A DNA stretch of 52,093 nucleotides from a virus. The position numbers and the translations under genes are program-made. Positions 36,276-47,288 of this stretch are shown here, piece after piece. The stretch covers positions 1-52,093 of IMG/VR virus record IMGVR_UViG_3300022911_000005. One strand, given 5' to 3'. The notes beneath the pieces were generated by a model that was given only the letters and a program-made list of their open reading frames with translations, did not search any database and was not told the DNA's origin. The number at the start of each line of letters is the position of its first letter. The stretch's first letter is position 1.

Positions 36276-36626
36276 TTATAAGTTTATCGGGTGAAATTGA
36301 TTTTGTTCGTCTATTGATTGTTGGATAGATTTTAGTAAATCATCAACCTCGTTCATTAAGTGCCTAATAGTATCGTCTCCTACTGGGTACACTTCCCAAT
36401 ATGGCTGGTCTACCGCTCCCAATATCCCATAACAATCTAAATAAACCGAAACGTCTGCCTTGTCTTTTTTTATTCTGAATCTAACAACAGCCCCCGTAAA
36501 TGGAGGTGATATTTGAATTTGTCAATCAGCAGGAAAAGAAATAAAGGGGATTTCTAGTCTCCACTTTTCGTGTTCAAAAGCTTTAGAATAATCTATGCCA
36601 ATTGAAAGTCTATCTGAATAGTTCAT
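36276..36626 (-). pseudogene. Gene with an in-frame TGA, 116 codons
   Basis: ATG 36626 to TAA 36276-36278 is a single uninterrupted frame except for TGA at 36522-36524 (codon 35). Before it: MNYSDRLSIGIDYSKAFEHE, ending FISFPAD; after it: QIQISPPFTGAVVRFRIKKD and VYLDCYGILGAVDQPYWEVY. Both halves look like good protein. No ATG follows the TGA until near the C-terminus. A TGG-to-TGA change would explain it. It is the first gene after the structured leader. Function unknown. Confidence 0.75.
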
Positions 36627-36782
36627 AAAATGAAAAAGCCTCATAGGTAGTAGCTATGAGGCATGGTTTTAGGTTTCCCTAATTCCATTAGAAAGGCTAC
36701 TACCTCTCTCTAACGGATAATATATTAATGCTAAATCCTATCCGGTTGCGCTGTTCTTATGAGAAGCGTGATAGGCATTATG
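36627..36782 (-). ncRNA. Structured 5' leader with kissing hairpins, copy A
   Basis: Minus-strand order. A 5' domain (CCTATC/GATAGG around an inner CGC-TTCT/AGAA-GCG hairpin, 36737-36775) comes first. Hairpin 1 (36716-36685) has an 11-bp stem CCGTTAGAGAG/CTTTCTAATGG with loop AGGTAGTAGC. Hairpin 2 (36682-36669) is TTAGG-GAAA-CCTAA with a GNRA loop. Hairpin 3 (36662-36638) is GCCTCATA/TATGAGGC with loop GCTACTACC, followed by five T and then ATG 36626. The loops of hairpins 1 and 3 are perfectly complementary. Two pairs in hairpin 1 are G-U only in the minus-strand RNA (A-C in the plus), which fixes the strand. Likely a cis-acting attenuator. Confidence 0.75.
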
Positions 36783-36788
36783 ATGAAA

Positions 36789-36820
36789 CAAACTTAATAA
36801 CTATTTTTTAAACTTCCAAA
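36789..36820 (-). promoter_or_regulatory. Promoter of the 36626-32426 operon
   Basis: Minus strand TTTG (36820-36817), 20-base spacer, TAAGTTTG (36796-36789), an exact TAnnTTTG. The start is expected near 36782, giving the 156-base leader. Confidence 0.75.
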
Positions 36821-36826
36821 TAAAAC

Positions 36827-36835
36827 TTATCCACA
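36827..36835 (+). promoter_or_regulatory. TTATCCACA box between divergent promoters
   Basis: Matches the DnaA-box consensus and the sequence inside the 27-base repeats at 1858 and 3079. It lies between the minus promoter at 36789-36820 and the plus promoter at 36841-36871. Whether host DnaA or a phage regulator binds is not known. Confidence 0.5.
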
Positions 36836-36840
36836 TACAA

Positions 36841-36871
36841 TTTGCATTAGACGCTAAAATAAATATCTTTG
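36841..36871 (+). promoter_or_regulatory. Promoter of the membrane-protein cassette
   Basis: TTTG (36841-36844), 19-base spacer, TATCTTTG (36864-36871): a complete consensus. Start near 36878, leaving a short leader of about 12 bases before ATG 36890. Confidence 0.85.
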
Positions 36872-36889
36872 TAAAGAATTATCAAACCA

Positions 36890-37186
36890 ATGGCAAAGAA
36901 AAAAAGAGTAGACATGGCCGACGGATGGGATGCCCCTTGGTGGGTATACCTTTCTTTAAAGCAATCAAACATTGCGGTTGGTACTTTATTGGGCTTTGCT
37001 ATTGGGCAGGGGTCTTTTTTTGGCGCAACAGGTGTATTAATACTTACGCTACTTAGAGACCAGTTTCAAGGACTATTAAGGGAAAAGGCCAAGAATGATA
37101 CACCGCCCGATTCGACAACATTCAAAAGTACAGAAGTAGGCCCTAAGGGTACAACAGAATCAAGTGTGACAACAGGAAACGAATGA
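36890..37186 (+). CDS. Membrane protein, 98 aa
   Basis: Basic N-terminus (MAKKKRVDMADGWDAPWWVY), then one or two hydrophobic helices (VGTLLGFAIGQGSFFGATGV, LILTLL), and a disordered Thr/Ser-rich tail (GTTESSVTTGNE). First gene of the plus cassette. Role unknown; lysis or a membrane complex are possible. Confidence 0.65.
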   Translation: MAKKKRVDMADGWDAPWWVYLSLKQSNIAVGTLLGFAIGQGSFFGATGVLILTLLRDQFQGLLREKAKNDTPPDSTTFKSTEVGPKGTTESSVTTGNE

Positions 37187-37647
37187 AAATATGGTTTACC
37201 AAATTTAGTATATGGCTAGTAGACAAGTTTGACGACATGGATGATATGTGGTATCTGGCGTCTATGGCGTTGGCTTATATTACAAGATGGTTGCCGTTAA
37301 GCGATTTTATAAGTAGTTGGGGTTTTGTAATGTCTCATGCTTATTGGGCAGCTAGTGGACAATTTTTTCTATATCTGGTTAAAATCAGATTACCTGGAAT
37401 ATTCGGAGATAAAGACGAGCATAAGATAGGAACAAGGGTTATGTATTTTGCTATTGATATGATAGTAAGTGGGTTCTTTGGTTTGATAGGGACACCCTTT
37501 TTAATAGCCAATGTAAACGAAACAACACCTAAGATTGCAATGACTTGTATCATAATAGGCGCATTTTATGAAACTATCGCAAAAATAGGTTTTAAAAGAA
37601 TAATTAAATTCATTGAGGAGAAAGGAGGAAGCGAAAAGAAAGAGTAA
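37183..37647 (+). CDS. Multi-span membrane protein, 154 aa
   Basis: About four hydrophobic stretches: MWYLASMALAYITRW, FVMSHAYWAASGQFFLYLV, YFAIDMIVSGFFGLIGTPFL, IAMTCIIIGAFYETI. Acidic linker DKFDDMDDMW near the start and a charged tail. ATGA overlap with the upstream gene. No family recognised; could be a holin. Confidence 0.65.
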   Translation: MKIWFTKFSIWLVDKFDDMDDMWYLASMALAYITRWLPLSDFISSWGFVMSHAYWAASGQFFLYLVKIRLPGIFGDKDEHKIGTRVMYFAIDMIVSGFFGLIGTPFLIANVNETTPKIAMTCIIIGAFYETIAKIGFKRIIKFIEEKGGSEKKE

Positions 37648-37663
37648 CTAAATTTAAAGCAAT

Positions 37664-37783
37664 ATGGCAAAGAAGTTGATTAAACCGATCAGGCCGAACC
37701 CTAAACCTAAGCCCCTGCCAAAGCCCAGGGAGTTAGACGATGAAGGGGGCGCACCTCACCCGCCAAAACCAAAAGGGCCTTGA
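37664..37783 (+). CDS. Pro/Lys-rich peptide, 39 aa
   Basis: ATG 37664 to TGA 37781-37783: MAKKLIKPIRPNPKPKPLPK, then PRELDDEGGAPHPPKPKGP. About one third Pro. Such peptides occur as Rz1-like spanin parts, but there is no signal peptide or Cys here. The stop overlaps the TTG start of the next gene. Confidence 0.5.
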   Translation: MAKKLIKPIRPNPKPKPLPKPRELDDEGGAPHPPKPKGP

Positions 37784-38286
37784 AAAAGCACTTAGGTACT
37801 TTTACGTTAGCTTTTGTATTTTACATGGCTAACGTTCTTTTTTTAGCCCTGTTCTACCGTGACGTAGAGTGGATGTGGACACTTAGCTGGATTATTGACC
37901 ACACCTATCAGGTATTTGCTGCTATGTATATTTTCTTAACTGCAAAACACCGCGACATTAAGCTCATTTCAGGCTACTGGTCTATTGTGACGGTTGTAAG
38001 ATTATCTTATACTCTGGCGGCGGCTAAAGGGCTTATTCCTTTGATTTCAGAGAAGTACTCATACGTATTTTTACTTGTTTTGCTGATATGTGGGCTAATT
38101 TATTTCATTATCAATACCGTTGAAATAAAAAATAAAACTATATTGCAGCAAATAAAACAACTTAGGTGGCGAGAATCACAATTAGTCATTTTTTGCAGTG
38201 GATACTTACAAAGATTGAGACAGTTATTTGCATTATATTATGCGACATTATTGGCATTCTTGAAGAAGCATTTGGATATGTTTTAG
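37780..38286 (+). CDS. Four-span membrane protein, TTG start, 168 aa
   Basis: The frame opens with TTG 37780 (TTGA overlap with the previous stop) and no ATG occurs before the first membrane helix. Helices: LAFVFYMANVLFLALFY, YQVFAAMYIFLTA, WSIVTVVRLSYTLAAA, YVFLLVLLICGLIYFIINT. The last 40 residues overlap the next gene in another frame and look less natural, so the functional end may be nearer residue 128. Function unknown. Confidence 0.6.
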   Translation: MKKHLGTFTLAFVFYMANVLFLALFYRDVEWMWTLSWIIDHTYQVFAAMYIFLTAKHRDIKLISGYWSIVTVVRLSYTLAAAKGLIPLISEKYSYVFLLVLLICGLIYFIINTVEIKNKTILQQIKQLRWRESQLVIFCSGYLQRLRQLFALYYATLLAFLKKHLDMF

Positions 38287-38483
38287 GAGAAGGCAAAAGT
38301 TGGATTGTGGTAATTACTGCTGTGTCATTCTATATTGGGAAACATATCTGGAATAGAAAATTAAAAATTGTGGAAATCAAGAAAATAGAAGAAGAAGCAA
38401 GAGAGAGAAGATTAAAGAACGACAGGGAAGAGCAGGAGATTAGAAAGCTAAAACACGAAAACGATATTTTAGAAGGCAAATAG
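38166..38483 (+). CDS. Membrane-anchored coiled-coil protein, GTG start, 105 aa
   Basis: The frame opens right after a TAG at 38163, so GTG 38166 is the only early start. Hydrophobic HFLQWILTKIETVICIILCD and SWIVVITAVSFYIGKHIW precede a charged helix (KIVEIKKIEEEARERRLKND) to the end. Plan resembles an inner-membrane spanin or a holin. Overlaps the previous gene by 121 bases in another frame, so a frameshifted fusion cannot be excluded. Confidence 0.6.
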   Translation: MARITISHFLQWILTKIETVICIILCDIIGILEEAFGYVLGEGKSWIVVITAVSFYIGKHIWNRKLKIVEIKKIEEEARERRLKNDREEQEIRKLKHENDILEGK

Positions 38484-38506
38484 TTTGTTTCATAAGGTTG
38501 GATAGT

Positions 38507-38536
38507 AAAAGCCTTAGATGTTTGTCTAAGGCTTTT
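38507..38536. terminator. Bidirectional terminator
   Basis: AAAAGCCTTAG (38507-38517) pairs with CTAAGGCTTTT (38526-38536) around ATGTTTGT. Seven T follow on the plus strand and four on the minus. It sits between the convergent ends of the membrane cassette and the minus operon. Confidence 0.9.
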
Positions 38537-38542
38537 TTTGTT

Positions 38543-38749
38543 TTAGGCAGACCCATAACGATAGGACTTTATAGCCTCGTCAGATTCTGCATAAAAGAAT
38601 CCTAATTCGTCTAATTTATCCCTATCTTCTTGTGAGAAACTTTCCCAATCATAACCACATATCCAAAGTTCATCATGCGCACAATGTGTTGGATATTCTG
38701 GATTTCCGTACTTTAGGAAAATTTGCAATGCTTCTATAAGTTTTTCCAT
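38543..38749 (-). CDS. Conserved phage-type hypothetical protein, 68 aa
   Basis: MEKLIEALQIFLKYGNPEYP, then THCAHDELWICGYDWESFSQ, EDRDKLDELGFFYAES and a terminal SYRYGSA. The P-T-H-C-x-H-D-E-L, then S-x-E-D-x-x-x-L-x-x-L-G-F, then G-S pattern recurs in many phages and bacteria; the function is not known to me. Last gene before the terminator at 38507-38536. Confidence 0.75.
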   Translation of the reverse strand: MEKLIEALQIFLKYGNPEYPTHCAHDELWICGYDWESFSQEDRDKLDELGFFYAESDEAIKSYRYGSA

Positions 38750-38787
38750 TTTGTTCTAATAGTTTTTAAATATAGTTGATTAATTAT

Positions 38788-39003
38788 TTAGCCCTCACTT
38801 AGTTCTTTTATTTTAAACTCAACTTCCCGAATCTTTTCTTTTATCTGGTCGTGTCTCGTAAATGATGGAGTGCATTTTACACACCTCATCGCTCTGCCCC
38901 AACCGAATCTCTCAACTACGCCATGTATTCTTAAATTCTCTTTATGTAGTGATTCGTTAAGTTTAACTAGCCTATTCTTTAGCGATTGAATTTTTTTGTT
39001 CAT
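38788..39003 (-). CDS. Hypothetical coiled-coil CxxC protein, 71 aa
   Basis: MNKKIQSLKNRLVKLNESLH, a middle segment with GRAMRCVKCTPS (CxxC) and a C-terminal helix KEKIREVEFKIKELSEG. Two helices flanking a Cys pair could form a zinc-hook-like or dimer structure. No family recognised. Confidence 0.6.
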   Translation of the reverse strand: MNKKIQSLKNRLVKLNESLHKENLRIHGVVERFGWGRAMRCVKCTPSFTRHDQIKEKIREVEFKIKELSEG

Positions 39004-39380
39004 TGCGTTATCGTGTTTATGTCGATACCTTCATTTTTATCCAAAAGTCCGAATACATCGAAATGGTGTTTGGCAAGTATTAAAACTATTGCATAAGGTG
39101 TAATACTAAAATCTAGATTTTCTATAATTGGCATTAAGAAATCAAGATTGTAAAGCGTATTCAATTCATCTAATGCAGGCTTAAAAGTAGGCAAGTCTTT
39201 CATTGGTCGGAGAATAGGCTTAAAGCCTTCTTCGTTTTCATAATGACATAAACCGGATTTCTCTTTAAACTCAATCATTCCGGCACGAATATCTATTGAA
39301 AACATTTCACCTATTTTGTCTTCATAGGTCTTTATCCTTAACTTGTAAGTTAAGTAAACTACTAATTTTTCTAGTTTCAT
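39000..39380 (-). CDS. Hypothetical protein, 126 aa
   Basis: MKLEKLVVYLTYKLRIKTYE, then DIRAGMIEFKEKSGLCHYEN, and a helical C-terminal half (LDELNTLYNLDFLMPIIENL). Family not recognised. ATGA overlap with both neighbours. Confidence 0.6.
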   Translation of the reverse strand: MKLEKLVVYLTYKLRIKTYEDKIGEMFSIDIRAGMIEFKEKSGLCHYENEEGFKPILRPMKDLPTFKPALDELNTLYNLDFLMPIIENLDFSITPYAIVLILAKHHFDVFGLLDKNEGIDINTITQ

Positions 39381-39820
39381 GTTGTTAGTTGGTTAGATTG
39401 TAGTCTCTCGTAAACATCGTCTTTCCAAAACTCAATATTTTCAAACTGCTTTTTTCTTTCAAAATATATTGAATTTTTGTTGTCTTTTTCGTCATCAAAC
39501 CTTAAAGAAAACCAATAATCAAACTCTTTATCTGTCATGCGTTTGTTCATAACAACATTGTGAAACCTTAATTGCACTTCCCAAGAAACATTCTCTCTGA
39601 ATACATCGCAAACCTTTTCAATGACCCTATATTTTCTTTTCATTGTATACGAGTTATATCCTCTAGGAATAAGGTCGTAAAACTCAATAGGAAAATCCCA
39701 TTGATTGAAAATCCAATCAAATTGAACCCAACGATCTTTAGGAAATGTAAATAGACGCTCTACTATCCTTCGACTAACTCTTTCATCCTGCCATTTTTGA
39801 AATTCTTCTAAAATATTCAT
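39377..39820 (-). CDS. Hypothetical protein, 147 aa
   Basis: MNILEEFQKWQDERVSRRIV, then RLFTFPKDRWVQFDWIFNQW and FEFYWFSL-type aromatic helices; the end is KDDVYERLQSNQLTT. Rich in Trp, Phe and Arg. No family recognised. First gene after the structured leader B. Confidence 0.6.
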   Translation of the reverse strand: MNILEEFQKWQDERVSRRIVERLFTFPKDRWVQFDWIFNQWDFPIEFYDLIPRGYNSYTMKRKYRVIEKVCDVFRENVSWEVQLRFHNVVMNKRMTDKEFDYWFSLRFDDEKDNKNSIYFERKKQFENIEFWKDDVYERLQSNQLTT

Positions 39821-39922
39821 AGTCTTAAAATAAAGAAACCGCTACCGGAAATGAGAGGCTCCGGCAACGGTTCTTTGGTTTTGTCTTGTTAGACAATTTC
39901 TTTTATCTGCTCTCATTCAGAT
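39821..39922 (-). ncRNA. Structured 5' leader with kissing hairpins, copy B
   Basis: Minus-strand order. Hairpin 1 (39924-39903) is TTATCTG/CAGATAA with the 8-base loop AATGAGAG. Hairpin 2 (39896-39881) is TTGTCT-AACA-AGACAA. Hairpin 3 (39876-39832) is AAAGAACCG pairing with CGGTTTCTTT, with an inner CCGG/CCGG and a loop containing CTCTCATT. The whole loop of hairpin 1 is perfectly complementary to that segment. After hairpin 3 comes ATTTT, then ATG 39820. Same plan and order as leader A (36627-36782) with unrelated sequence. Confidence 0.75.
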
Positions 39923-39926
39923 AACA

Positions 39927-39957
39927 CAAATATACTCTTAATTCTTAGTATTCCAAA
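39927..39957 (-). promoter_or_regulatory. Promoter of the 39820-38543 operon
   Basis: Minus strand TTTG (39957-39954), 19-base spacer, TATATTTG (39934-39927): complete consensus. The -33 element lies within the last codons of the gene at 39945-40097. Confidence 0.85.
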
Positions 39958-47260: not shown

Positions 47261-47288
47261 ATGTTTTGTAAAAATAATTTAAAAAAAA

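Follow-up and report, generated by a model that had tools for sequence, protein, structure and literature searches.

The 52,093-base virus record IMGVR_UViG_3300022911_000005, analyzed in full and referred to here as the window, carries two leader RNAs, A and B, both on the minus strand, that belong to a family of leader RNAs of Bacteroidota, mainly flavobacterial, phages. In these RNAs, a short element close to the 5' end (as a rule, the loop of a first hairpin, H1) is complementary to the loop of a terminator-like hairpin (H3) ahead of an open reading frame (ORF), and this loop pairing is conserved while its letters change freely. The family has the appearance of an RNA control element that is both new and widespread.

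Conservation of the loop pairing

Members were sought in 1.93 Mb of sequence, made up of a few named phages and of contigs related via their primase-helicase gene, and also including some non-phage contigs that had been binned with other bacteria. A sequence-only reading of the window, which had proposed a candidate new RNA family, had staked it on instances being found in relatives; 57 sequence-distinct members were recovered, and the family is not refuted. A strict scan returned 90 matches, 47 of them with a Bacteroidota promoter motif near H1, compared with 17 and 2, respectively, in shuffled sequence. In an anchored test, sites were picked by promoter motif, a strong U-tailed hairpin, and an ORF, with no pairing required. 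Across 68 dereplicated sites, the complement between RNA start and hairpin loop was 7 to 9 nucleotides (nt) long in 36, 6 nt in 1, and 3 to 5 nt in 31, a bimodal distribution, and swapped partners reached 7 nt in ∼3% of cases. Of the 54 primase orthologues that have a promoter motif no more than 260 nt away, 39 carry the element, and there were 0 marginal 6-nt matches. A loose scanner was dropped because its matches arose mostly by chance, and it was replaced by the strict, anchored, and loop-agnostic tests.

For the loop-agnostic test, a single subfamily's H3 scaffold was kept fixed, with its loop left open, and used as the pattern for a search of viral contigs. This search yielded 32 distinct instances carrying 13 different loops; some of these instances had already appeared in the earlier set. 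All 32 have a matching 7- to 10-nt complement upstream and 31 have the promoter motif, while swapped partners reached 7 nt in 7% of cases. With a second, looser scaffold, a complement was found in 17 of the 23 matches that had a promoter.

Covariation points the same way. In an alignment of 22 leaders, double compensatory changes occur at 9 of the 10 pairs of the helix between the 5' element and the H3 loop, and the inner 8 pairs form in every sequence. The covariation score of this helix is 0.388, versus 0.101 when shuffled; sliding the partner by one column abolishes the compensatory signal, and the stems adjoining the paired loops also covary. The underlying cell counts are not independent events, because related sequences inherit changes, and the swapped-partner tests are the stronger evidence. 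The proposal of a candidate new family is thus borne out across many genomes, in which the pairing is kept while bases differ, by formal covariation counts, and by the lack of an Rfam family match in the loci tested.

An anchored scan of most of each genome gave no convincing member in Cellulophaga phages phi10:1, phi13:1, and Nekkels_1, Maribacter phage Panino, or Polaribacter phage Leef_1. In host DNA, 400 kb of a Tenacibaculum chromosome produced just four weak, chance-like matches, and a one-scaffold pattern search in four Bacteroidota genomes plus the phage elemoF found nothing.

The two leaders of the window

A scan of both strands of the whole window for two hairpins with complementary loops and a U-tail returned exactly two matches, leaders A and B, and 20 whole-window shuffles at k=7 returned 0. 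Both leaders fold better than shuffled sequence (z-scores of −5 to −6). The predicted complementarity between loops 1 and 3 was confirmed in each, over 8 nt in A (AATGAGAG with CTCTCATT) and 10 nt in B (AGGTAGTAGC with GCTACTACCT); no such element arose in 3,000 dinucleotide shuffles per leader. As had also been claimed, the two share no extended sequence. Their parts are as follows.

Leader A, 39926-39821, minus strand; the ATG of the next gene is at 39820.
39927..39957, minus strand: leader A promoter, TTTG-N19-TATATTTG, a consensus match.
39903..39924, minus strand: hairpin H1, TTATCTG-AATGAGAG-CAGATAA, with loop 1 (AATGAGAG) at 39917-39910.
39881..39896, minus strand: hairpin H2, TTGTCT-aaca-AGACAA.
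39836..39873, minus strand: terminator-like hairpin H3, GAACCG...CGGTTT, whose loop contains CTCTCATT at 39857-39850.
39827..39835, minus strand: U-rich tract after H3, assigned from sequence, with CTTTATTTT between H3 and the ATG at 39820.
39377..39820, minus strand: first gene after leader A, 147 amino acids, no family match.

Leader B, 36788-36627, minus strand; the ATG of the next gene is at 36626.
36789..36820, minus strand: leader B promoter, TTTG-N20-TAAGTTTG, a consensus match.
36684..36717, minus strand: hairpin H1, with loop 1 (AGGTAGTAGC) at 36705-36696.
36669..36682, minus strand: hairpin H2, TTAGGGAAACCTAA.
36638..36662, minus strand: terminator-like hairpin H3, GCCTCATAG-CTACTAC-CTATGAGGC, with GCTACTACCT at 36654-36645.
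36627..36637, minus strand: U-rich tract TTTTTCATTTT, assigned from sequence, with TTTTTC after H3.
36276..36626, minus strand: first gene after leader B, 116 codons, with an in-frame TGA at codon 35.

Bacteroidota-type promoters (TTTG-N19/20-TAnnTTTG) lie directly upstream of both leaders. The shared three-hairpin plan of the sequence-only reading holds insofar as H1, H2, and H3 are present in both. It fails as a strict plan: an additional hairpin, which can compete with the base of the H1 stem, precedes H1 in leader B, so that H1 is not 5' terminal there and the plans of A and B are not identical, and H2 is optional in the wider family. In leader B, the outer bases of the 10-nt complement fall in the ends of the H3 stem.

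The product of the gene after leader A has no Pfam or PHROG match, and no relatives of this protein were found. For the protein encoded after leader B, relatives were found on one distant contig, in which no such leader was seen, and a megablast search of the region against phages gave no match. The TGA in the latter gene (window positions 36524-36522, minus strand) interrupts FPAD*QIQ, where the homologue in contig L002 reads FPADWQIQ; either this record holds a disrupted gene or there is a sequencing error at the TGA base.

A and B may not be the only two long leaders, as the sequence-only reading had it: other promoter-like sites in the window lie at 47261 (followed by a 50-amino-acid ORF) and 32446, both on the minus strand. 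The latter begins a short transcript unit at the end of an operon (32446-32290, minus strand) that has a terminator-like hairpin, and an upstream AAAATAG is complementary to CTATTTT in the hairpin loop. This unit may be a third, AU-rich, weaker element, or it may be due to chance.

Anatomy of the leaders

The anatomy of the family was summarized from 32 dereplicated members with a strong H3. The paired 5' element starts 3 to 15 nt past the −7 motif, near the RNA 5' end, and lies in a hairpin (score of ≥5) in 26 of the 32, versus 35% in controls. One subfamily has only a weak H1 or none, and its bare 5' end forms an H-type pseudoknot with the H3 loop. Loop 3 is most often 8 nt long and the complement 7 to 8 nt, which is the size of natural kissing loops. 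The paired element has a GC content of 0.57 and the linker, which is AU rich, one of 0.20; the linker often contains AAAACATTA or a small H2. In many members that lack H2, the stretch separating the 5' element from H3 holds a conserved AAAACATTA-like motif (e.g., in contigs L050, L059, and L099), which is possibly a contact site.

Some H3 stems have a symmetric internal loop of the tandem G-A type (TGAA/GGAT or TGAT/TGAT). A-tracts often precede H3, and T, which the search did not require, has a frequency of 0.58 to 0.82 at positions +1 to +7 after it, with A commoner beyond. The distance from H3 to the ATG is 4 to 23 nt, often 10 to 17 nt. Leader-peptide attenuation was not supported, as an ATG or GTG ORF of at least 5 codons starts before H3 in only 10 of 32 leaders examined for it.

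Downstream genes and cultured phages

A simple sequence sort of the ORFs behind 71 sites, some of them near-duplicates, assigned 36 to primase-helicases, 22 to the unknown class, 7 to NUMOD4/HNH-like proteins, 4 to GIY-YIG proteins, and 2 to DNA methyltransferases. Small accessory genes, originally proposed as the targets, do follow some members, but primase-helicase genes are the commonest target. Contigs carry one to three leaders each. A recurrent leader with the identical pairing ACCGCCAA/TTGGCGGT (L009:7066, L036:12462, L019:2873, L063:4693, and others) often precedes a gene starting with M(K/R)ISELP. Between a family leader and the primase gene at L003:2190-2510, GCAACACTTT repeats resemble replication-origin iterons; ATACGCAA repeats of a like kind are present upstream of the primase gene in the window (about 47385-47290, minus strand).

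The element is also carried by the cultured elemo phages of Flavobacterium (68 records matched), in which it precedes a small gene that is itself ahead of a replication gene. The sequences of elemoF and elemoA are identical up to the promoter and nearly identical in the start region, but their cores differ (GTGGAGG/CCTCCAC and TGAGAGC/GCTCTCA, respectively); elemoA_15-3D has a related but altered promoter region and the core GTGAGATG/CATCTCAC. By itself, the elemoF fold improves only modestly on shuffled sequence (z-score of −1.7), and it is therefore the loop pairing that carries the case for elemoF. Among elemo phages of a single host strain (L302:480-760, L301:300-560, and L122:9420-9180, the last on the minus strand), the core is almost wholly different while the flanks are closely similar, and the annotated tRNA just upstream also differs (Met or Ala).

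Comparison with known RNA elements

The architecture was not described in the literature searched, and there is a fair chance that the logic of these leaders is categorically new. The promoter early stem-loops (PeSLs) of T4-type phages are promoter and stem-loop cassettes that lie between accessory genes and are spread by recombination; to our knowledge, loop complementarity is not part of their description. They belong to other phages and have other promoters. With regard to such mobile cassettes, the present element precedes different gene types, and the elemo cores differ between closely similar flanks. Terminator riboswitches with kissing or pseudoknot folds are likewise leader RNAs with tertiary loop pairing and a terminator before an ORF, but no conserved ligand core is found here, and loops and stems vary freely. 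For type III toxin-antitoxin systems, no repeats were seen by eye in the leaders, without a dedicated repeat scan, and the downstream genes are mostly primase, endonuclease, methyltransferase, or unknown genes.

As terminator-bearing leader RNAs, family members appear to work somewhat like the put RNAs of phage HK022 or pT181-type attenuators but fail defining features of both. HK022 has two put RNAs (putL and putR) downstream of early promoters, with two stem-loops each and no dedicated protein (PMC9378689). The likeness lies in phage cis RNAs behind promoters, two stem-loops, as found here, and multiple copies per genome. In contrast, the put RNAs share sequence, whereas the window leaders share no extended sequence and loops differ within contigs; put also contacts RNA polymerase and acts on separate terminators, whereas here the terminator lies within the RNA. 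Leaders of the pT181-type attenuators, like those described here, join kissing hairpins to an intrinsic terminator (PMC4878617). There, however, the partner is an antisense RNA acting in trans rather than the same RNA, and an antiterminator competes for the terminator stem, of which none was found in our leaders. Within leaders A and B, the plus strand holds no Bacteroidota consensus promoter, the one promoter type searched for, that could serve an antisense RNA. Of the features of a transcription attenuator, an intrinsic terminator (hairpin and U-tract) in the leader before the ORF is present at the level of sequence.

Proposed function and alternatives

The reading we prefer, which we hold tentatively at somewhat less than even confidence, is cis-acting, promoter-proximal attenuation, in which the 5' element would pair with the H3 loop and meter transcription into the gene. 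The promoter would start an RNA whose 7- to 10-base 5' element (usually the H1 loop, sometimes a bare 5' end) would pair with the H3 loop to form, within one molecule, a kissing complex or an H-type pseudoknot, with the U-tract and the start codon behind it. Loop 3 would exit the polymerase ahead of the 3' arm of H3, and the 5' element could therefore capture it first. The captured loop would set the timing or strength of H3 terminator folding, and the leader would thereby meter the transcription entering the gene. We infer that H3 terminates and that pairing alters termination; as to direction, we lean toward pairing that would weaken or delay it, because the genes must be expressed and a good hairpin and U-tract terminates unaided. 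The absence of cross-pairing among different leaders of one contig (0 of 42) points to action in cis.

Several observations weigh against such attenuation. The U-tracts of some members are short or interrupted, and the leader at L003:2102 is followed by 340 nt with repeats instead of a close ORF. Mutual sequestration that decides terminator use, one suggestion of the sequence-only reading, is conjectural. A classical, mutually exclusive antiterminator was looked for and not found: the fraction of the H3 5' arm that pairs upstream is 0.257, versus 0.272 with shuffled upstream sequence. A simple on/off exchange is unlikely, because the pairing seems compatible with the H3 stem. Since the complement lies mostly inside loops, as in natural kissing complexes, the kiss and the H3 stem can probably coexist, and with no classical antiterminator found, any effect would act by folding order or as a tertiary clamp. 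A common ligand, also raised in the sequence-only reading, is unsupported, as there is no conserved aptamer-like core and loops differ freely, and support for a shared regulator was also lacking. It is possible, though doubtful, that the leaders constitute a categorically new sort of phage RNA switch in which the 5' element captures its own terminator loop and a freely drifting loop code is private to each leader. That code would either meter termination by folding order alone, without ligand or protein, or keep the leaders of one phage or of coinfecting phages from interfering, like plasmid incompatibility loops.

The main rival to attenuation, which we consider rather unlikely, is an mRNA stabilizer or translation leader, in which pairing would hide the 5' end, H3 would sit just outside the ribosome footprint, the U-rich tract would be mainly an AU-rich initiation region, and readthrough mRNA would be protected and well translated. 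The placement of the paired element at or near the RNA 5' end, 3 to 15 nt after the −7 motif, the tie between 5' end and H3 even in members without H1, and the narrow spacing from H3 to the ATG all fit such a role. Yet T rather than A dominates right after H3 and A-tracts often precede it, which is the mark of an intrinsic terminator; stability alone needs no terminator ahead of a gene, and H1 of leader B is not 5' terminal. Protection of mRNA is nevertheless likelier than either stand-alone small RNAs or put-like action. Small RNA genes acting in trans, e.g., by dimerizing or silencing sister leaders via the two complementary loops, would account for units made of promoter, short RNA, and terminator, for the ORF-less stretch after L003:2102, and for the fast change of cores among elemo phages. 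The idea is improbable given that leaders of one contig show no cross-complementarity and nearly all leaders directly precede an ORF.

We give about as little weight to a put-like antiterminator, in which the folded leader would act on its own polymerase to pass H3 and later terminators. The RNAs described here resemble put in lying just downstream of phage promoters, several per genome, with put itself built of two stem-loops behind early promoters and needing no dedicated protein, but kissing is not mentioned in the put paper, the two put RNAs share sequence (PMC9378689), and our leaders have free sequence and a built-in terminator. Complementary 7- to 10-mers are also inverted repeats at the DNA level, but it is very improbable that they are operator half-sites rather than RNA elements, as they occupy hairpin loops flanked by stems that themselves covary, and their sequences differ among the leaders of one genome, so that one protein could hardly read them all. 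Chance or a search artifact is scarcely credible: a loose scan does yield many chance matches, but the strict, unbiased, and loop-agnostic tests concur, and the loop-agnostic scaffold result refutes it.

Implications

Support is strong for a structured RNA family whose sequence is almost free and which sequence-based RNA searches would miss. Little is known about gene control in Bacteroidota phages, and the family shows that they put a terminator-like hairpin, linked to the 5' region of the RNA, ahead of replication genes and homing endonucleases. The occurrence of members in cultured elemo phages on Flavobacterium sp. BAL314 makes the family directly testable. If attenuation is correct and the pairing sets terminator use, the leaders would act as an RNA timer that needs no ligand, can be programmed, and comes with orthogonal parts ready made.

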